The notes: generated by a model from the letters alone, not told the origin. A DNA stretch of 44,948 nucleotides from Candidatus Thorarchaeota archaeon (GCA_004524435.1 SDNO01000002.1:1-44948), one strand, 5' to 3'; numbered from the stretch's first letter, positions 4,030-42,766 are shown. Program-made: numbers and translations.

Positions 4030-4956
4030 TTGAACCTAGAGAGAGTACTGACAAAACTGAAGTTTGATGAATCAGTCAGTGGTTACGCTCTCTTGACCAA
4101 CGATGGCTCTCCATTCCTGTCATTTGCACTCCCCGAGCATTCCCTCCCTCTGATTCAAGGGACAATGAAGATACATGCCTCCTCACTGAAGATGATGAAT
4201 ATCATGACCGGTGATGGGGTTGTGATTCTTGCGCGCGTGAACCCCGAATGGGTGTTAGCCGTGAACTTCTCAGAGTTACAGCTCGGGATTGCGCTGAAGC
4301 GAACGCAGGATGTTGTGGAGCTGCTGAAAGAAGTAGATCTCCCTGCTCCTCCTACTCCTGATGAGGAACCAGAAGAGGAGATGGAGCCCGAACCAGACGT
4401 TCCTGAAGCAGAGATAGAACCGGCAGAGACTTCCGAACCAACGGAGGAAATCATTGAGGAGATTCCACTTGATGAGGTTGAGATACGTCACGGATGCCTC
4501 ATATTGCGTGGCCCTCTGTATAATGATGCAGCAAGCATTGACTCGGAGCTGAGCCGTACTCTCAAAGAGAAGTACTCGGGTCTTGGAACAGACATTCTGC
4601 TAATGGTAGACGAGAAGCGAACCACCCTCAAGATTGCTGAGATTCTTGGCAAGACGGTAGATAACGTCATTCAAGTGCTATGTTGGTGCGTTTCGAAGCG
4701 CATCTTAGATGCAGAGTGTCCTGAAGAACAGGAGTCAGGCATTCGTGAGATAGTCGAGGTTCCGCTTTTCGAGGGCTCTCTCGAAAAGGCCAAGAAGGAG
4801 CATCGGCAGGTCTTGGAGCTGTGCAATGGCATCAACACACTGCATGAGATTGCAGCGAGGTTAGGCGTCCAGTATTTCGAGGCTCTACAGAGCACTCTGC
4901 CCTACAAGGGTAAGACTCTACGATATGTAAAACGAGATAAATCCACCAAAGGATAG
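4030..4956 (+). CDS. Roadblock/LC7-like N-terminal domain + acidic linker + tandem winged-helix-like domains (paralogue A)
   Basis: N-terminus 'VSGYALLTNDGSPFLSFALPE...VVILARVNPEWVLAVNF..LQLGIALKRTQDVVELL'; Pro/Glu-rich linker; C-terminal 'VPLFEGSLEKAKKEHRQVLELCNGINTLHEIAARLGV'; TTG start. Confidence 0.6.
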   Translation: MNLERVLTKLKFDESVSGYALLTNDGSPFLSFALPEHSLPLIQGTMKIHASSLKMMNIMTGDGVVILARVNPEWVLAVNFSELQLGIALKRTQDVVELLKEVDLPAPPTPDEEPEEEMEPEPDVPEAEIEPAETSEPTEEIIEEIPLDEVEIRHGCLILRGPLYNDAASIDSELSRTLKEKYSGLGTDILLMVDEKRTTLKIAEILGKTVDNVIQVLCWCVSKRILDAECPEEQESGIREIVEVPLFEGSLEKAKKEHRQVLELCNGINTLHEIAARLGVQYFEALQSTLPYKGKTLRYVKRDKSTKG

Positions 4957-4963
4957 TGAAATT

Positions 4964-5470
4964 ATGGGTATTAAGGGAAAACTGGCTTGGGCCCTCAAGA
5001 TTGACAAGGTCTCAAAACCACTCTTTCAGGCAATCTATCGTGAGATGATGAACTTCCTCATCCAGACTAGTGATACAGTCGATGAGGTCAATCGAAAACT
5101 AAAGGACCTAGGCTTCAAGGTGGGAGAGCATTTGCTCATGGACTACGCCGAACGAATTCGCGAACACGCAGCAGAGTTCCATGAGTTCGGTTCCACATTG
5201 CAACTCGCATACAAGGTCAACTCGGGACAAGACTTCACAAGTGCTTGGGTCAGTGATGACAGGAGGACAATCAAGTTCTCCGATGATAACTGTCCAATAT
5301 GTGAGGGAGTCGAAATCACAGATATGCCTGGTCTGCAGTACTGTAATCTCATCAGTGGCGTCTTCCAAGCAGTCCTCGATCTTCGTGGTTTTCAGGGTGA
5401 GGCCTACCAGGAGTCTTGCAAGGCTCTGGGTGACTCCACCTGCACGTGGACCATTCATAAGATAGATTGA
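4964..5470 (+). CDS. V4R-domain protein (4-vinyl-reductase-like, Bet3/TRAPP-related fold)
   Basis: 'CPICEGVEITDMPGLQYCNLISGVFQAVLDLRGFQGEAYQESCKALGDSTCTWTI' with V4R cysteine pattern. Confidence 0.7.
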   Translation: MGIKGKLAWALKIDKVSKPLFQAIYREMMNFLIQTSDTVDEVNRKLKDLGFKVGEHLLMDYAERIREHAAEFHEFGSTLQLAYKVNSGQDFTSAWVSDDRRTIKFSDDNCPICEGVEITDMPGLQYCNLISGVFQAVLDLRGFQGEAYQESCKALGDSTCTWTIHKID

Positions 5471-5547
5471 GCTCCCCCTCAGAATGGCGTATGTATAAAA
5501 GATGAAGATGGGTGTCGAGTCAGTAGAGAATAATCGGAGGCTATTCG

Positions 5548-6048
5548 TTGGGTCAAGGCATAGGCACTATTGTTGGTCTTGTGACTACTTTCGCAGTTGT
5601 CTTCATCATCCTCTCCTTTGGAATATTCATCCCTGAAGATGTGATTGACCCGTCGATAGTTGCGGATTTCATGAATCGCCCCGATCTTGAGCTTAAACTC
5701 GCTGTTGTCGGGACAATCCTTTATCCTCCCCACCTAGGAGTGCAATTATCATTTGGGGCTCAGGGCGGGACAGTACTCATGGCTCTCGCGTGGGGTGTTG
5801 GTGGGCTGCTAGCCGGCCTTCTTTCACGCGATATTGTAGGCGGAATCTTTGCAGCCGTCTTTGCGGTGGTCATCGGTGCCTTTCTGACCTGGCTTCTCGT
5901 ATTCTTCATTGGCACTGCAGATATCTCGCAGATTTTGGGTGCCCCTTCCCTATTACTACTACAGTTTGTCTTGGAGGGCATGCTTTATCCCTCCATAGCT
6001 GCAATAATTGGTGGCCTGCTTGGCGGTGCTATCACAAGAAAACGCTAG
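5548..6048 (+). CDS. Multi-pass membrane protein
   Basis: About four hydrophobic spans; TTG start; TATA-like GTATAAAAGA at about 5491-5501. Confidence 0.65.
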   Translation: MGQGIGTIVGLVTTFAVVFIILSFGIFIPEDVIDPSIVADFMNRPDLELKLAVVGTILYPPHLGVQLSFGAQGGTVLMALAWGVGGLLAGLLSRDIVGGIFAAVFAVVIGAFLTWLLVFFIGTADISQILGAPSLLLLQFVLEGMLYPSIAAIIGGLLGGAITRKR

Positions 6049-6055
6049 AACTGGT

Positions 6056-6622
6056 CTAGCTCTGAGTTTTCTGCTCCAAGACTCTGCCGCACTCTGAGCA
6101 TAGAATAGGATTTGATTTGAATACTGCTCCACATTGGCATCGGGTTTCTATTCTCTCTGGTGCCTCCGGAGGCTCTTTCGCGCGGATTCTGTTGACTATG
6201 AGTGTGGCCGGAATCGAGGACACGAGAGATAACTGAGAGGTAAGCAGGGCTACGATGAAAGAGACCAGAATCACCACATTCCTGTCAGTCTGATACCAGA
6301 AACTGGGATTGAGGAGAAGTGTAGATGCGAGGTGTACCGTTCCGATGACCAAGCCGACCCATACGGCGGTCCTTACATTGGTCCACGTCCCATCCGAAAA
6401 CAGCCCAGACAAGAATCCAATGAGCAGCCAGGCCAATAGGTGCTGCAGAAAGTCTATACCCCAACTCAGAGTGGAGAAGGTGTTCAAGAGGACGGAGGAT
6501 GCCGCCAAGAAAATGGCAAAGGTCCCATAGGGCACAGGGTACTCCGGGATGTCTAGCCCCAGGGCATAGAGCACGAGCGAGCCGACAACAAAACTGAGAA
6601 TCGCCCCGATGAGGTTTTTCAT
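6056..6622 (-). CDS. Multi-pass membrane protein with C-terminal zinc-ribbon (CxC..CxxC)
   Basis: Four to five hydrophobic spans followed by 'CQCGAVFKSNPILCSECGRVLE'. Confidence 0.7.
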   Translation of the reverse strand: MKNLIGAILSFVVGSLVLYALGLDIPEYPVPYGTFAIFLAASSVLLNTFSTLSWGIDFLQHLLAWLLIGFLSGLFSDGTWTNVRTAVWVGLVIGTVHLASTLLLNPSFWYQTDRNVVILVSFIVALLTSQLSLVSSIPATLIVNRIRAKEPPEAPERIETRCQCGAVFKSNPILCSECGRVLEQKTQS

Positions 6623-6973
6623 GATTTTTGCACCACGAGAACACTAGCTTCCAGTCATCGATGGTCCAAAATAAAGATAGGTGTTCTGATGCGCTGCTGG
6701 CAGCGGTCCAGCGATATGTAGATCTTTGCAGAAGTGCAGGACTCGGCTGGAGGGATCAGATTCTGTACGAGAATACTTCTTAACACCTCCCTCATTATTG
6801 AATGACGTGGACGTCCTTCGAATCGGAACCCACGCATTGGGAGATGATTTCATCACGTTCAGCCGCTCCGTCTGAGAACTTGGTTTATCGAATACCACAA
6901 CGCTTTTCAGACTACTGCGGACTTCCTGATACTTGAAGGACTAGTTTCCTCAGCGAATGCGAGGTGTAGCAGA

Positions 6974-7969
6974 TTGGCCAGTGACTTAGAAAGAGCTCTG
7001 TCGAAACTACGTTTCGACGATCAGGTTCTTGGATACTCCTTGATGACCAAAGGAGGTCGTCCATTTGTCAGTTTCTCATTTCCTGATGAGCTGTTTCCCC
7101 GCGTCAAGGACAGCATCAATCTCTACAAGTCTGATTTGAGGCTCATGACCATTGATACGGAGCAGGGCCTTGTTGTCTTGGCTCCGGTTGATGATAATTG
7201 GATTCTGACTGTTCTATATGTGCCAGAACTCCAACTCGGTCTCGCAATCGCAAAGACCAAGAACGTCCTTCGTCTTCTAGAGGGAATCGAGCTCCCGCCT
7301 CCACCTGAGGATTTCGAGGAATCAGCAGAAGGGAACCTAGAGGTTCTGGAGAGCATCGCCATTCAGGCAGCATCCACGGAGGCTGTTGCACCCTCCCCTA
7401 CTTCTACTGAGCCCACGCCGCCTCCGGTTGAACAACCGGAACCAACAGTAGAGCTTGAACCGGAAGAGCTATCCCCCAGCGATTTCCAGCTTGGACCATC
7501 AACAGTACCCGGCCGGGGCGAGGCCTATGCAAAGGCTCTGTCCCTAGACTCTGAACTTTATCAGGAGATGAAGAAGTCCTACCGCAACTTCGGATTCGAT
7601 GTTCTGATGTTGGTGGACGGGAATACCTCCGTTTCCGACGTAGCGGACTCGATGTTTCAGCCCCTTGAGCGAGTGATAGAGCTGCTCAGATGGGCTGCGT
7701 CGAAAGACATTGTTACTGCTCCTTTGGCCGAACCGTCTGAGGTGTCTGGCGGAAAGACGGGCGGTTTTGGTCGGTTTGTGAAGGTGCCCCTATTCGAAGG
7801 CGATCTGTCCAAGGTACGTCCTGAGGACAAACCGATAATCGAGATCTGCGATGGTACAAAGACGCCAGAACAGATTGCGAAGTCCACGGGTCTGCCAGTT
7901 CCAAGAGTAATCCAAGTATTGGCGCAATACAGACGACACGGTCTGCAAATGATTGGCAAGACCATCTAG
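6974..7969 (+). CDS. Roadblock/LC7-like N-terminal domain + linker + tandem winged-helix-like domains (paralogue B)
   Basis: 'DLERALSKLRFDDQVLGYSLMTKGGRPFVSFSFPDE...LVVLAPVDDNWILTVLYVPELQLGLAIAKTKNVLRLLE' aligns end to end with paralogue A at 4030-4956; TTG start. Confidence 0.6.
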   Translation: MASDLERALSKLRFDDQVLGYSLMTKGGRPFVSFSFPDELFPRVKDSINLYKSDLRLMTIDTEQGLVVLAPVDDNWILTVLYVPELQLGLAIAKTKNVLRLLEGIELPPPPEDFEESAEGNLEVLESIAIQAASTEAVAPSPTSTEPTPPPVEQPEPTVELEPEELSPSDFQLGPSTVPGRGEAYAKALSLDSELYQEMKKSYRNFGFDVLMLVDGNTSVSDVADSMFQPLERVIELLRWAASKDIVTAPLAEPSEVSGGKTGGFGRFVKVPLFEGDLSKVRPEDKPIIEICDGTKTPEQIAKSTGLPVPRVIQVLAQYRRHGLQMIGKTI

Positions 7970-8001
7970 ATATCCAGACTACCAGAAGAGGTCAGATCTC
8001 A

Positions 8002-8475
8002 ATGGCAAAGATAGAGAATCCGTTGTTTCTAAGCATCTATTCCAAAATGGTTGATGACATTCTCATGTCCACAGCGAATGTGGAGGAAGCAAATGAGAAG
8101 CTGCGAGAACTTGGCAGTGAGATGGCTCAGCAAATCTATCTTACAACTGAGATTGTTGACAAGACCAAAGAAACCATCACGACTCGGGAAGACGTTTCGA
8201 AGCTGATTGAAGTTCTCTTCAAAGTATTATTCGACAAGAAACCGTCTGATATAGACATGGAGTCTGCTAGAGGCTCAGTACGAGTCAGCGATGAATCTTG
8301 TATCTGGTGTCAAGAGGTCAATCTGGAGGGAATGCGAGGTTTCGGGTATTGTGAGGCCTTCAGTGGAATCCTTCAGTCCATTCTACAGTTCAAAGGTGTA
8401 GATGCAAAGGTCTTCGAGGAGTCCTGCAAGGCGACCGGAGCCGAGCAATGTACCTGGAATGTACGTCTTGTCTAG
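8002..8475 (+). CDS. V4R-domain protein
   Basis: 'CIWCQEVNLEGMRGFGYCEAFSGILQSILQFKGVDAKVFEESCKATGAEQCTWNV'. Confidence 0.7.
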   Translation: MAKIENPLFLSIYSKMVDDILMSTANVEEANEKLRELGSEMAQQIYLTTEIVDKTKETITTREDVSKLIEVLFKVLFDKKPSDIDMESARGSVRVSDESCIWCQEVNLEGMRGFGYCEAFSGILQSILQFKGVDAKVFEESCKATGAEQCTWNVRLV

Positions 8476-8524
8476 CACATCATGACAAGAAACTTAACCA
8501 TCTACGCGATAGAAAGCCTACTGA

Positions 8525-9097
8525 TTGGTGAGCCTCAGAATGTCAAAGGAGCAAGATATCATAGAATGGTGGCAAGGTCGCCTCAAAGAGAGAGAGCTGA
8601 TGCGTGCTTTCTTCAGCAAGACTTGGACAAAAATCGGAAATCGCATCGAGGTAATGTTTCCAGACAAGACGAAGGACCTCTATTACAGTGCAGGTAGGCT
8701 TGCCGGTCTAGAGGCCCAGCGAGAGTATTTCAAGATAGGTAAGCAGACCCCACCAGGCGATTTCAAGGGCATCATCGAGTTCATCAAGATGGCACTAGAG
8801 ACCCTCATCGTCCCCTTTGGCGATATCAAGATTGCGAAGCTGTACAAACTCTTCCTGGATGAGGAGGCAATTATCGAGGTCAAAGACAACCCCTACGCGG
8901 CGGGTCTTGACAGTGATGAGCCCACCTGCTACTTCCTGAAGGGGTTCATAGAGGCAGTCCTAGAATACTTGACCGATTTCAATAGAATCGAGTATGAGAA
9001 ACTCGTGGTCACTGAAGAAACGTGCATGTCGATGGGAGCTGAAGCGTGCACTTTTCAGATCACGATGTCCTATCCCGCCCGTGGTGAGAGACCCTAG
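8525..9097 (+). CDS. Divergent V4R-domain protein
   Basis: 'CYFLKGFIEAVLEYLTDFNRIEYEKLVVTEETCMSMGAEACTFQI' retains the C-terminal V4R pattern but lacks the CxxC; internal ATG at 8540 also possible. Confidence 0.6.
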   Translation: MVSLRMSKEQDIIEWWQGRLKERELMRAFFSKTWTKIGNRIEVMFPDKTKDLYYSAGRLAGLEAQREYFKIGKQTPPGDFKGIIEFIKMALETLIVPFGDIKIAKLYKLFLDEEAIIEVKDNPYAAGLDSDEPTCYFLKGFIEAVLEYLTDFNRIEYEKLVVTEETCMSMGAEACTFQITMSYPARGERP

Positions 9098-25939: not shown

Positions 25940-26479
25940 TTGACTGTGTCAGAAGCGTTTCAGTACATGCGGAAGGTTGTTATGATTGGCGCCGGGGGCA
26001 GTGGCAAGACCGCGCTTGTCAATCGGTTCCTGACACATAAGTTCTCAGAGCAGTACATAGTCACCATCGGAAGCCAATTCGCTGTCAAGACGGTCGCGGT
26101 CGATAGGGACAATGGGAGTAGTGTCACCGTGAAGCTTCTGGTCTGGGATCTGGCTGGTCAGCAGCGCTTCGACTTCATCCGGTCTAGCTACTATAAGGGA
26201 GCAAAAGGTGCTCTGCTTGTGTTTGACGTGACACGAAAGAACACCTACGATGTCCTTCCCAACTGGATTGAAGAAACAGAGAATGCCCTGGGCCAGCGAA
26301 TCCCCATCATCCTCCTGGCAAACAAGGTTGATCTGGTTGATGAACGAGTCATATCTTCTGACATGGCTCACCAATTTGTGGAGGAGAATGGACTCAACGG
26401 CTATCTCGAAACCAGTGCTCTCACGGGGCAGAATGTTGAGCACGCATTCTATCTACTTGCTAAGTCTAGCCTGAACTAG
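25940..26479 (+). CDS. Rab/Ras-like small GTPase
   Basis: G1 'GAGGSGKT', G3 'WDLAGQQRF', G4 'NKVD', G5 'ETSA'; TTG start. Confidence 0.9.
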   Translation: MTVSEAFQYMRKVVMIGAGGSGKTALVNRFLTHKFSEQYIVTIGSQFAVKTVAVDRDNGSSVTVKLLVWDLAGQQRFDFIRSSYYKGAKGALLVFDVTRKNTYDVLPNWIEETENALGQRIPIILLANKVDLVDERVISSDMAHQFVEENGLNGYLETSALTGQNVEHAFYLLAKSSLN

Positions 26480-33403: not shown

Positions 33404-34597
33404 TTGAGAAATATCTCCCCGCAGGCCTTGCCTCAAGGGACCGGGAGTAAGAAAAGAATGCCCGTTGCGATGCTCTTAATCGATTGGGACAGTAAGATTG
33501 GCGCCGTTTTGAAGGCGAAAGTCCCGGATGACTTTGCGGACTACTACCGTGAAGACCTGAATACTGAAGCCATGAGGATCTTCACTTCACACGCAATGGG
33601 TGATGCCACTGCGGGATTCTCTACTCTCAGCGTCAGAGTAGGCGGTGAAGAGTACAATGTGGCCTCCTACTACACTGGGATTGTGCGAGAAGAGGAGCAA
33701 TACTGCGTCTCTCTCTTGCTAACACCATCTGAAGATCCTAAGACGTATGAGGCTGCCATCACATCCGTGGTGTCTCCCATCACAAATGCAGTCATATCCA
33801 TGACAGATGCAGAACTTCAGGAAGAACTCGACAACACGTATCGAAGAATCATACGTCTAGCCGGTATGACAGATGAGAGTCGTTTGGCGCGCTTGTTCTA
33901 CGATGAGGTCTCTCGTGCTGTGTTTCCGAAGCTCTGGAAAGGTGGCATCTCCAAAGAGGATTTAGAAGAGTGGCTCAAAATGGTCACTGGGCTTCCCAGT
34001 GTCAGTGTTGACTCGATACTCTCTCCATTCGAGGAGTTGGGCTTGGTCAAGAGCGAGTGGGTTGACGAGATTGGCCGGACTTGTGTGTTCATGATCAAAG
34101 ACCTTGAGGTCTTCAGAGCTCCACCTCTCACTGCGATGGAATCCGCAGCCGAGATTCTGGATCCTGAGCTTGCTGCTCAGTACAAGGCAGAGGTACTGGA
34201 GTTTCTCACGGAATGGAAGAAGACACCTGAAGATACAGTGGCTATCGCTGAGGTACTCGCAGATCCGGATTGCTATGATGTGTTGACCGAACTCCGGACC
34301 CGCCCAGTGAGCGTTGCGGAGCTGGAGGCATCCCTTGGTATTCCTCCCAAGGAGCTCAGAGCTGCAATCGAGACTCTCAAGAAGTACCGTGTGATCTCAG
34401 AAAAGAGGCGGAAGGGCGCCTCTGGCGAGTTTGACAAGTGGCTCTTCCTGCTGAACGACATCCGAGTACGGCTCTTCTTCCCTGAGTACTTCCTTCAAGA
34501 TCTCATCACCGAGCTTGAGAAGACCCCAGATGACTCTCGTGCTCGAGAGATGGTCCACCAGCATCTGCGCCTCTTGCGAGACAATTTCCCAAGGTGA
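33404..34597 (+). CDS. Longin/roadblock-like N-terminal domain + tandem winged-helix domains
   Basis: 'VAMLLIDWDSKIGAVLKAKVPDDF...TLSVRVGGEEYNVASYYTGIVREEEQYCVSLLL'; wHTH 'PVSVAELEASLGIPPKELRAAIETLKKYRVISEKRRK'; TATA CTTTTTTAG ~26 nt upstream of TTG suggests a leaderless start; ATG 33458 alternative. Confidence 0.6.
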   Translation: MRNISPQALPQGTGSKKRMPVAMLLIDWDSKIGAVLKAKVPDDFADYYREDLNTEAMRIFTSHAMGDATAGFSTLSVRVGGEEYNVASYYTGIVREEEQYCVSLLLTPSEDPKTYEAAITSVVSPITNAVISMTDAELQEELDNTYRRIIRLAGMTDESRLARLFYDEVSRAVFPKLWKGGISKEDLEEWLKMVTGLPSVSVDSILSPFEELGLVKSEWVDEIGRTCVFMIKDLEVFRAPPLTAMESAAEILDPELAAQYKAEVLEFLTEWKKTPEDTVAIAEVLADPDCYDVLTELRTRPVSVAELEASLGIPPKELRAAIETLKKYRVISEKRRKGASGEFDKWLFLLNDIRVRLFFPEYFLQDLITELEKTPDDSRAREMVHQHLRLLRDNFPR

Positions 34598-36143: not shown

Positions 36144-38042
36144 TTGATTTACATATACATTGAAGGAAGATTCCCAAGGATAGACCATCTTCGTAGCATC
36201 GGTGAACAGGCCTTGATTCATAACACGTTCCTAGTCCGTGTCTCCAACAACAAAGTACTCGCATCGACCCAGTATTGGCCAGTGGATGTTGAACCGGAGG
36301 AGATTGCAGAGTTTATCGAGACCAGGTCAGATCTGCGGTCAGCCGATACCTCCATGTCTGAGATTCCTCTGATAATCGGTGACGACAAGTACCACGGTGT
36401 CGAAGTAGTCCGAGACCTCCTCTTGGTGTTCGTAACAGATACCAGTGAAGATGAACATTCCATCTTTGAACGGATGGAGGATGCGGTCAAGCCCCTGAGA
36501 AGAACACTTGAGAAGAAGGGGCTGGACGAGCTGGTCGAACACTACGAGGCTCTCATCGAACCATCCGTCACTACCCGTCTGAAGATTGCTCTTGTCGGGG
36601 AGGGTGGTGTTGGAAAGACAACGACCCTGCACCTACTGCTCGGCGATACACCTCCAAAGCAATACGTCCCCACCATAGCTCTCAATCTGGAAACCGTGGA
36701 GAACATCCGCTTTGGGAACTACAGCCTCGTTTTGTGGGACTTCGCCGGCCAGGAGCGGTTCAGAACGCTCTGGCGCTTCTACTTCCACGGCGCAGATGTC
36801 ATCTTCTTGGTGTGTGACTCTACGCTGAGGAATGTTATCATCAGTAAGGACATCCTGAAGCTGATACGCCGTGATGCTCCCAAGGTCCCTGTCTTTGCCC
36901 TAGCAAACAAACAGGACAAGCCCAACGCAATGAAGCCTGAGGTCGTCCACAAGATATTGGGGATTCCTACGTATCCCATGGTGGCAATTGACAAGGAACG
37001 CCGTGACGAAATGCTGAGGATTCTGATGAACGCTGCAGCCCAGTATGTTGGGGTAGTGCTTCCTGACCTTCCTGCAAGCGAGCTCCTGAGATTCAGCGAT
37101 GAGGCTGCTGAGAGGGCTGCTGTGGTTGACCTTCGAGGGGAAGATGAGGAAGAGGAGTACGAAACGGTTGAGGTCATCGAAGAGGTGTATGTGGACGAGG
37201 ACGGTCACATCATCGAGGACACAGACGACTACGAGATCATCGAAGAAGTCGTTGAGGAAGTGGAGATTGAACCCGGTGAGGAGCTGGATGTTGAAGATAT
37301 TGATGTGGCGCCCGAGGAGCCTGCAGTCCCTGAGACCAGCACCGATTTCGTGATAGTCGAAGAAGATGAGACCGAAACTGCGGAGGAGATTGTTGAAGAA
37401 CCCCCTGTTTCTGGAGATATCCCAGAACCTGCATATCATTCCTCCACTGAGTTGGTTCCTGTCGAAGAGGAATCTGAAGCCGCCTCTGAAGATGAGGCTA
37501 CATACGAGATAATCCCGATTCAAGAGGAAGAGGGAGAGGCAGAGGAACAGGCAGAGGAACCCCCCACTGAGACTCCTGAAGAGGAATTCGACGTGGAAGT
37601 GGAGGATAAGGGTGCCCCTGCGGAGATATCAGTTGAAGTATCAGACGAAGCCAAAGAAGAGGTGGAGGAGGTACCAGAACCTCCATCTGAGGAGGAGATG
37701 ACTGACGAGCTGCGCCTCGTCAAGGATATCCTCTCCGAAAAGCTAGATGCAGACGACATAATTGCGGAGGAAATAGACCGGACAGCTCCGGATGACCTCG
37801 ATATTGCTCTCGATGCGCTGAAGTGTGAAGAGACTGTGAGCCCGAACGGAACAGAGACTGAGGCTCCGGATGAACTGAGAGAGGATGAGCTTCTAGACCT
37901 CGATAGAATCTTGGGGCTCTTGGACGACAAGACTACACCCCCGCCAGATGACACAGAATCCGCTGAGAAACCGGAGAGTGTAGACGAAGATACCCTTGTT
38001 GAGCTTGAAGAGATAATCGACCCCAAAGAATCTCATGACTAG
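36144..38042 (+). CDS. Longin/roadblock-like N-terminal domain fused to an Arf-like GTPase and a ~300-aa acidic C-terminal tail
   Basis: G1 'GEGGVGKTT', switch 'YVPTIALNLE', G3 'WDFAGQERF', G4 'NKQD'; ~145 residues precede the GTPase; tail rich in Glu/Asp; TTG start. Confidence 0.85.
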   Translation: MIYIYIEGRFPRIDHLRSIGEQALIHNTFLVRVSNNKVLASTQYWPVDVEPEEIAEFIETRSDLRSADTSMSEIPLIIGDDKYHGVEVVRDLLLVFVTDTSEDEHSIFERMEDAVKPLRRTLEKKGLDELVEHYEALIEPSVTTRLKIALVGEGGVGKTTTLHLLLGDTPPKQYVPTIALNLETVENIRFGNYSLVLWDFAGQERFRTLWRFYFHGADVIFLVCDSTLRNVIISKDILKLIRRDAPKVPVFALANKQDKPNAMKPEVVHKILGIPTYPMVAIDKERRDEMLRILMNAAAQYVGVVLPDLPASELLRFSDEAAERAAVVDLRGEDEEEEYETVEVIEEVYVDEDGHIIEDTDDYEIIEEVVEEVEIEPGEELDVEDIDVAPEEPAVPETSTDFVIVEEDETETAEEIVEEPPVSGDIPEPAYHSSTELVPVEEESEAASEDEATYEIIPIQEEEGEAEEQAEEPPTETPEEEFDVEVEDKGAPAEISVEVSDEAKEEVEEVPEPPSEEEMTDELRLVKDILSEKLDADDIIAEEIDRTAPDDLDIALDALKCEETVSPNGTETEAPDELREDELLDLDRILGLLDDKTTPPPDDTESAEKPESVDEDTLVELEEIIDPKESHD

Positions 38043-41815: not shown

Positions 41816-42064
41816 TCCAAATGATACTCTCACTATATACTTCGCGTTTTGCCGATATAACTTCTTTGATACGGGTTTTGTCGAAATACAGTTCGTACAA
41901 CATCGATTGGCTGTTCCCGTGTGCGCTTGCCAGTCTGCTGGTCTTCTCTAAAGGTGCTAGGAACCGGTCTAGTAACACCTAAGAGCGAGAACGCCAAATC
42001 ATTATTAACTCCCGATATGATTACGGGGACGCAATGTACGGAACGCAGGATTGGGTGCAAGATA

Positions 42065-42766
42065 ATGAAGATTGTAGTCACAGGCCCATATGAATCGGGA
42101 AAGAGCTCCATTGTTCATCATATAACCGATGGTGCATGCATCAATGTTGAGCGCAACGGTACCACTATAGCTATGGATCATGGTGTTGCCAACGTGGATG
42201 GCATGAGTGTGTTCCTATTTGGAACACCGGGCCTTCTACGATTCAGGACAATGCGGAAGATTCTCAGTTCTGGTGCTGACGGTATCATATTCGTTGTGGA
42301 TTCAGTCGATGAGGAATCCGACGCCAGAGCCAGACTCTTCTTCAGAGAGATTGCATTCTTCCTTCCCGGAGTTCCCTGTGTCGTTGCGGCAAACAAACAA
42401 GATCTTGCGAGTGCACGGCCTGTTGACAGACTACGTGAGAGTATGAGTTTTCTTGTTGGACTGCCAGTCATCCCCTGTTCAGCTAAGACAGGGGAGAACA
42501 TTGACAATGTACTGCGAACACTGCTCTATCTCTCTATGATGCAATGGTGCTCTGTGTTCAAGAAGATGGCTGAGTATAGTGGTTCATCAGATGGACTCAG
42601 TCAATTGATGGACGACCTAAACATGGATCGAGAGCAGGTTGTTGGCTACCTCAGGCGTTTTGAGCTCCGTAAGCTACTTGAGGTTCAAGTCGGAGACGAA
42701 GAATTCAAGGTCCGAGAGGAAGTCCGACCAATACTGGAGAATCCAATGACCCTGATGCGCCGATAG
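42065..42766 (+). CDS. MglA/COG2229-like small GTPase with C-terminal winged-helix-like extension
   Basis: G1 'GPYESGKSS', G3 'FGTPGLLRF', G4 'NKQD', G5 'CSAKTG'; ~60-aa C-terminal extension; ATG 42065 preferred over the track start 41921. Confidence 0.85.
   Translation: MKIVVTGPYESGKSSIVHHITDGACINVERNGTTIAMDHGVANVDGMSVFLFGTPGLLRFRTMRKILSSGADGIIFVVDSVDEESDARARLFFREIAFFLPGVPCVVAANKQDLASARPVDRLRESMSFLVGLPVIPCSAKTGENIDNVLRTLLYLSMMQWCSVFKKMAEYSGSSDGLSQLMDDLNMDREQVVGYLRRFELRKLLEVQVGDEEFKVREEVRPILENPMTLMRR

Follow-up and report, generated by a model that had tools for sequence, protein, structure and literature searches.

Why does a Thorarchaeal genome keep two copies of a gene for a Roadblock-winged-helix protein, each directly followed by genes for proteins of the Bet3 fold? 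The question is raised by positions 4030-9097 of a DNA stretch from Candidatus Thorarchaeota archaeon (GCA_004524435.1 SDNO01000002.1:1-44948), analysed at its whole length of 44,948 nucleotides and called the window in the following. An earlier note on this sequence had proposed a duplicated cassette of Roadblock-winged-helix and V4R proteins as a candidate undescribed signalling or trafficking module. The Roadblock-winged-helix gene and the Bet3-fold gene are a real and ancient pair, broader and more sharply defined than in that note. Established here are the folds of the domains, their homology, and the pairing and fusion of the genes across Asgard archaea. All five open reading frames of the proposed cassette were found at the positions given at that time, and the locus comprises the following features.

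4030..4956, + strand: RBH1, first copy, a Roadblock domain joined by a Pro/Glu linker to two winged helices (open reading frame; paralogue of RBH2; alignment)
4964..5470, + strand: TRAPP1, TRAPPC3/Bet3-like, the copy nearest to eukaryotic TRAPPC3 (Pfam TRAPP 5.9e-9; phmmer; family profile)
5548..6048, + strand: TM1, small hydrophobic protein between both copies, possible associate (adjoins both copies in the family)
6056..6622, - strand: TM2, hydrophobic, with a zinc ribbon (CxxC...CxxC) at its C-terminus, possible associate (linked to RBH in a second family)
6623..6973, no strand: divergent gap of 351 bp, which probably holds the promoter of the RBH2-TRAPP2-V4R3 unit (gene spacing)
6974..7969, + strand: RBH2, second copy, Roadblock 2-102, first winged helix (wHTH1) 185-253, second winged helix (wHTH2) 268-330 (AlphaFold2; Foldseek)
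8002..8475, + strand: TRAPP2, orthologue of the Thorarchaeal TRAPPC3 known from the crystal structures 7yh3 and 7yh2 (phmmer, full length; Pfam TRAPP 9.2e-8)
8540..9097, + strand: V4R3, third Bet3-fold member, V4R type (Pfam V4R 1.1e-11; start from alignment)

Domain folds of the paired proteins

RBH1 and RBH2 share 37% identity across residues 2-298 (E = 5e-51), which confirms that they are full-length paralogues. The AlphaFold2 model of RBH2, a single chain like all models used here, reached a mean pLDDT of 86.8 with an input alignment of 52 homologues. Its residues 2-102 run helix-strand-strand-helix-strand-strand-strand-helix and thus form a complete Roadblock fold, followed by a helix, a disordered linker and two winged helices at about residues 185-253 and 268-330. 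Foldseek matched the model at TMt 0.58-0.75 to Roadblock structures, among them those of Asgard archaea, of Ragulator and of MglB, and a profile of the RBH N-terminal domain had the Roadblock entry 7f8m as its best PDB match (E = 7e-5); the full-length RBH profile gave no significant match in the same database. RBH2 does not reach the Pfam Robl_LC7 cut-off (12.6 bits vs 23, E = 0.12) and is a divergent Roadblock/LC7 member that is recognised through fold and profile. Accordingly, the Roadblock-like N-terminus and the tandem winged-helix C-terminus that had been read from the sequence are both borne out. The motif 'VPLFEGxLxK...' is indeed common to both copies, and its place is to be corrected to the second winged helix.

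The three proteins encoded behind the RBH genes had all been called V4R proteins, a label that holds for the last of them. V4R3 passes the cut-off of 31 of Pfam V4R (PF02830) with 45.1 bits (1.1e-11) and matches the MJ1460 structure 2osd at 0.008; its start is probably 8540 rather than 8525, judging by the alignment of 17 orthologues. The products of 4964-5470 and 8002-8475 are of the TRAPP/Bet3 type instead, with 36.3 bits (5.9e-9) for TRAPP1 and 32.4 bits (9.2e-8) for TRAPP2 against the Pfam TRAPP (PF04051) cut-off of 27, and with 13.2 and 15.4 bits, respectively, below the V4R cut-off. In control genomes, the PF04051 search was positive in none of 14. TRAPP2 matched 7yh3 over its full length (phmmer E 7.2e-75) and is, on sequence comparison, the orthologue of Thor-TRAPPC3, of which structures from Thorarchaeota SMTZ1-45 and AB25 were solved (7yh3, 7yh2; PMC10933270). 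The Bet3 fold of TRAPP2 follows from this solved orthologue. TRAPP1 is paralogous to it and has the same zinc cysteines, with Cys 110, 113, 127 and 160 aligning with the Zn-binding residues of Thor-TRAPPC3. As a single sequence, TRAPP1 found 7yh3 at 3.8e-24 and the TRAPPC3 entry 6aq3 at 2.6e-8 (phmmer), and its Asgard-family profile scored TRAPPC3 at 7e-17 vs TRAPPC5 at 7.5e-5 and TRAPPC6 at 8.5e-5. TRAPP2 is about equidistant from these three proteins (E 0.004-0.2), and TRAPP1, not TRAPP2, is by these scores the copy nearer to eukaryotic TRAPPC3. Moreover, the structure-proven relatives possess ligand cavities.

Recurrence of the pair within and beyond Thorarchaea

Gene order alone may simply be inherited, and the Thorarchaeal family illustrates how little it can say. 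RBH was found in 36 of the 37 family genomes, the exception being a metagenome-assembled genome of 52% completeness. The block running from a helix-hairpin-helix (HhH) gene at its start through RBH1, TRAPP1, TM1, TM2, RBH2, TRAPP2, V4R3 and an ABC transporter to LysRS is kept in 15 of 16 mapped genomes, and the sixteenth (L046) has the block without TRAPP1. Spacing is tight: at 24 of the 27 Thorarchaeal loci, 0-23 bp separate RBH1 from TRAPP1, and at all 25 loci for RBH2 and TRAPP2 the gap is 13-36 bp. Nevertheless, LysRS and the GTPases located 19 and 29 kb further downstream are equally fixed in place within the family, and because the whole region is therefore syntenic, retained order is weak evidence here; family-level synteny was rejected as functional proof for this reason. 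A sigma-70-type scan for promoters and terminators, which is ill-suited to archaea, gave matches at chance level. Besides, a record titled Lokiarchaeota (RBin_111, L058) has the same block, as similar in sequence as among Thorarchaea, and is probably mislabelled.

Loci outside the family are far more informative. The TRAPP1 profile was searched against 228 Asgard genomes and revealed homologues in many other families, of which 20 loci and 7 more were inspected for their neighbourhoods. In 9 of the 11 evaluable families, the TRAPP1-type gene lies directly behind, or is fused to, a gene whose product begins with a Roadblock, a longin or a different domain (Roadblock or longin in eight of the nine), and the partner almost always bears the same winged helix. 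The partner is a Roadblock-winged-helix protein in f1, f5 and f16, with a gap of 9 bp in the latter two, and likewise in f11 and f12, where its gene lies directly upstream at about 6 bp and 42 bp; the distances over f5, f16, f11 and f12 span 5-42 bp. A longin-winged-helix protein takes the upstream position in f13 and f14, and in f9 this winged helix is joined to another N-terminal domain. Sifarchaeum (f7) encodes longin and TRAPP in a single open reading frame that has no winged helix. The TRAPP1 gene of f10 was not evaluable, with the contig end too near. Additionally, f13 has a second, separate operon, in which two overlapping TRAPP-like genes are followed after 10 bp by a longin-winged-helix gene.

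Several further observations were made at these loci. The f9 partners (L086, L087, L089, L090) have an unrelated, cysteine-bearing N-terminal domain with a CxxC near residue 8. A longin-winged-helix gene in the f10 genome adjoins a transposase. Tandem TRAPP-like genes 0-50 bp apart occur in two families (L101 6448-7479, L094 6577-7682) and are candidates for obligate TRAPP heterodimers.

Loci of different families have little in common beyond TRAPP and its partner, except for the near relatives f5 and f16. As each genome holds 1-6 partner-type matches, chance adjacency amounts to about 1e-3 per family, and the product for seven families is about 1e-21, in which shared ancestry is not taken into account. 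The reading of the pairing as inherited gene order of no functional meaning draws on the synteny of the Thorarchaeal region from the helix-hairpin-helix gene through LysRS to the GTPases. Across Asgard archaea, however, the pair stays while the rest of the neighbourhood changes, with tight spacing and gene fusions. Barring alignment or assembly errors in those pairs, the cross-family comparison refutes this reading, which is highly improbable. Thus, the pairing proposed earlier stands by its recurrence in distant Asgard families with different neighbours, and the order within the family adds little.

Possible roles: GTPase platform, transcription regulator or scaffold

The explanation that accounts best for these observations, and is favoured by a little, is an Asgard complex in which a GTPase-platform dimer and ligand-binding TRAPPC3-like dimers form a GTPase regulator resembling the TRAPP core. 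Each copy would be a co-expressed pair whose products probably form a single complex, and a physical association of RBH with TRAPP is quite likely. The Roadblock-winged-helix protein would dimerise via its Roadblock domain and so offer a typical docking platform for small GTPases, as in MglA/MglB, where a Roadblock dimer likewise serves as GTPase platform; MglB differs in having neither winged helices nor a TRAPP partner and in its adjacent GTPase gene. The TRAPPC3-like protein would dimerise as well and carry a hydrophobic ligand; the solved orthologue is such a dimer with a hydrophobic cavity. The second winged helix could act as adaptor between the Roadblock and TRAPP halves or as dock for a third protein. 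The output would be a lipid- or membrane-sensitive regulator of Ras-family GTPases at the membrane, i.e., a guanine nucleotide exchange factor or a GTPase-activating protein; for GTPase regulation by the module, the evidence is evenly balanced. In Thorarchaea, duplication of the pair possibly led to a TRAPP1/TRAPP2 heterodimer.

The main rival reads the same genes as a split, ligand-responsive transcription regulator, in which TRAPPC3/V4R senses a hydrophobic ligand, the RBH winged helices bind DNA and the Roadblock domain is a dimeriser only. V4R is a sensory domain in regulators such as PoxR and MsvR (PMC10933270; PMC3729527), and the cavities of the structure-proven relatives suit such a sensor. 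The second winged helix is the most conserved part among the partners and is kept in nearly every family, whether joined to a Roadblock, a longin or another N-terminal domain, with a recognition helix of median charge +3. The first winged helix, however, is acidic to neutral (median -2), the Sifarchaeum fusion combines longin and TRAPP with no winged helix, the longin partners match TRAPP longins, and no regulated neighbour is conserved across families. Moreover, Foldseek puts the RBH2 model beside GATOR1/SEA chains, whose tandem winged helices make protein contacts and not DNA contacts. Such a transcription regulator is rather unlikely.

The likeness to GATOR1/SEA is itself limited. NPRL2/Npr2 has the domain order of RBH, a Roadblock/longin-fold domain followed by tandem winged helices, and the top Foldseek matches of RBH2 are length-matched GATOR1/SEA chains (chain identity inferred from the PDB entry). 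Their whole-chain superposition is poor, with a root-mean-square deviation of ~21 A and TM ~0.2, and there is no sequence match. Npr2 combines a longin with three winged helices (PMC3521125) and lacks a TRAPPC3 partner, whereas RBH has Roadblock topology and two winged helices; likewise, no match of RBH to Pfam NPR2 (PF06218) was found. In the window, the gene at 33404-34597 encodes 397 residues with a longin-like N-terminus and a winged-helix C-terminal part (Pfam HTH_20 only), an NPRL2/Npr2-like order.

The second alternative is a scaffold or trafficking adaptor that regulates no GTPase and whose Roadblock dimer would do no more than bind helices, as dynein light chain or LAMTOR4/5 does. Some Roadblock proteins indeed regulate no GTPase (PMC10933270), and the Thorarchaeal operons are without GTPase genes. 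RBH is, in addition, linked to the membrane proteins TM1/TM2 in two families; in the second, their homologues adjoin a single RBH gene with no TRAPP gene there (L049, L050), and TM1/TM2 may be an older partner of RBH. Two points argue against a pure scaffold: the replacement of Roadblock by a TRAPPC1/Bet5-like longin elsewhere, which points to a shared role as GTPase platform, and the adjoining Rab genes in two lineages. In f13, the first TRAPP-partner pair is preceded upstream by two genes for Rab-like GTPases, and in f10 two such genes are divergent from a TRAPP fusion gene. A scaffold of this kind is improbable.

The GTPases encoded at 25940, 36144 and 42065 of the window had been put forward as possible targets. 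They lie 16-37 kb away in a region that is syntenic as a whole, so position gives no support for an action on them, and the proposal was dropped. In MK-D1, GTPase genes are generally found outside the operons of TRAPP-core-fold proteins (PMC10933270). The window gene at 36144-38042 encodes an Arf-like GTPase that is fused to an N-terminal domain and ends in a very long acidic tail, and keeps the same distance from RBH2 in relatives; 41921-42766 encodes a divergent small GTPase whose C-terminal extension resembles a winged helix. Elsewhere, a gene in L106 (G045:C127) encodes a TRAPP/V4R domain behind a long N-terminal extension and is divergent from two Rab-like GTPase genes.

Several findings weigh against a TRAPP-core-like GTPase regulator. 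GTPase genes adjoin the module in two lineages only, and in f4 and f6 two tandem TRAPP genes have no Roadblock or longin neighbour. The second winged helix is basic, with a net charge of +1 to +8 in Thorarchaea and +1 to +5 elsewhere, which would suit the binding of nucleic acids as well. TRAPP1 is decaying in genus g4, with an in-frame TAA in G003 (L035) and a C-terminal remnant of ~33 residues in G023 (L046), G032 and G029. As RBH1 stays intact beside it, RBH1 does not strictly depend on TRAPP1, and the pairing is not obligate. The match of the longin partners to BET5, described below, is modest; the model of the Sifarchaeum fusion has a longin half with pLDDT < 55 and leaves the longin-TRAPP contact unreadable; and the tree leaves the position of TRAPP1 as sister of eukaryotic TRAPPC3 unresolved, with weak key forks and long branches meeting. 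As a side observation, a cyclase-like gene lies near the decaying TRAPP1 in two of the g4 genomes.

Relation to the TRAPP core

TRAPP activates the GTPases of membrane traffic in eukaryotes. Its core, compared here for the TRAPPC1/C4 longins, TRAPPC3, C5 and C6, likewise pairs a longin/Roadblock-fold protein with TRAPPC3-like proteins. In TRAPP, the TRAPPC1/C4 longins form the Rab site with TRAPPC3 on the flanks (PMC10152722). The likeness extends to the individual subunits, as TRAPP1 has its nearest counterpart in TRAPPC3, and the longin partners from other families have theirs in BET5/TRAPPC1. The Thorarchaeal partner differs in being a Roadblock protein, not a longin, and in bearing winged helices that TRAPP lacks.

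A profile of six partner longin domains searched against 177,635 PDB sequences found BET5 first (E = 0.0066), followed by BET5 again at 0.074, TRAPPC1 at 0.38 and, further down, Trs23 at 1.2; a profile built on three longins only gave no match. At the level of sequence, the BET5/TRAPPC1 match is modest but specific, and it was not selected for. Helix-turn-helix families aside, Pfam ranked Sybindin (TRAPPC1/C4) first for two partners and a MON1-type longin family first for one other, with every score under the cut-off. The TRAPP domain of the Sifarchaeum fusion gave a good model, which matches TRAPPC3 at TMt 0.75-0.88. A TRAPPC1/C4-type longin heterodimer is not part of the Thorarchaeal module, where the partner is a Roadblock protein, and is weakly indicated in other families.

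Much of the wider setting had been described before. The archaeal origin of the TRAPP fold was already known (PMC2253512), and all TRAPP core folds are present in Asgard archaea (PMC10933270). Furthermore, a Heimdall longin-TRAPPC3 fusion (MBD3190748.1; PMC10933270) holds the same two folds in one chain; it was reported as a single sequence, unconnected to operon pairs, and the Sifarchaeum open reading frame is of this kind. With this fusion noted and the Thor-TRAPPC3 structure published, the earlier term 'undescribed' was too strong for the module. The main text of PMC10933270 presents Thor-TRAPPC3 as a homodimer and does not mention the upstream Roadblock-winged-helix gene, TRAPP1 or the spread of the pair across Asgard archaea. 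No report of a Roadblock/longin-winged-helix and TRAPPC3 pair was found in the open-access literature (subscription papers and supplementary files excluded).

As Roadblock is replaced by a TRAPPC1/Bet5-like longin elsewhere, the module holds both building blocks of the TRAPP core, and it might, tentatively, be ancestral to TRAPP. More tentatively still, it could be a living relative of the TRAPP precursor, an Asgard operon whose longin or Roadblock platform and TRAPPC3-like subunits work as exchange complex for Rab-type GTPases, with longin and Roadblock interchangeable. The eukaryotic core would then have arisen from the longin (Bet5-like) version through gene duplication and loss of the winged helix.

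The origin of the eukaryotic multi-subunit Rab exchange factors is the open question addressed by this locus. The TRAPP core folds of Asgard archaea were previously tied together by one fusion only, and the conserved pair now matches both halves of the TRAPP core. The results suggest that the published Thor-TRAPPC3 homodimer is without its natural partners, TRAPP1 and RBH2. A gene pair that is kept and fused across Asgard archaea offers a defined complex for reconstitution and suggests, short of proof, that the TRAPP core began as a simple archaeal operon.

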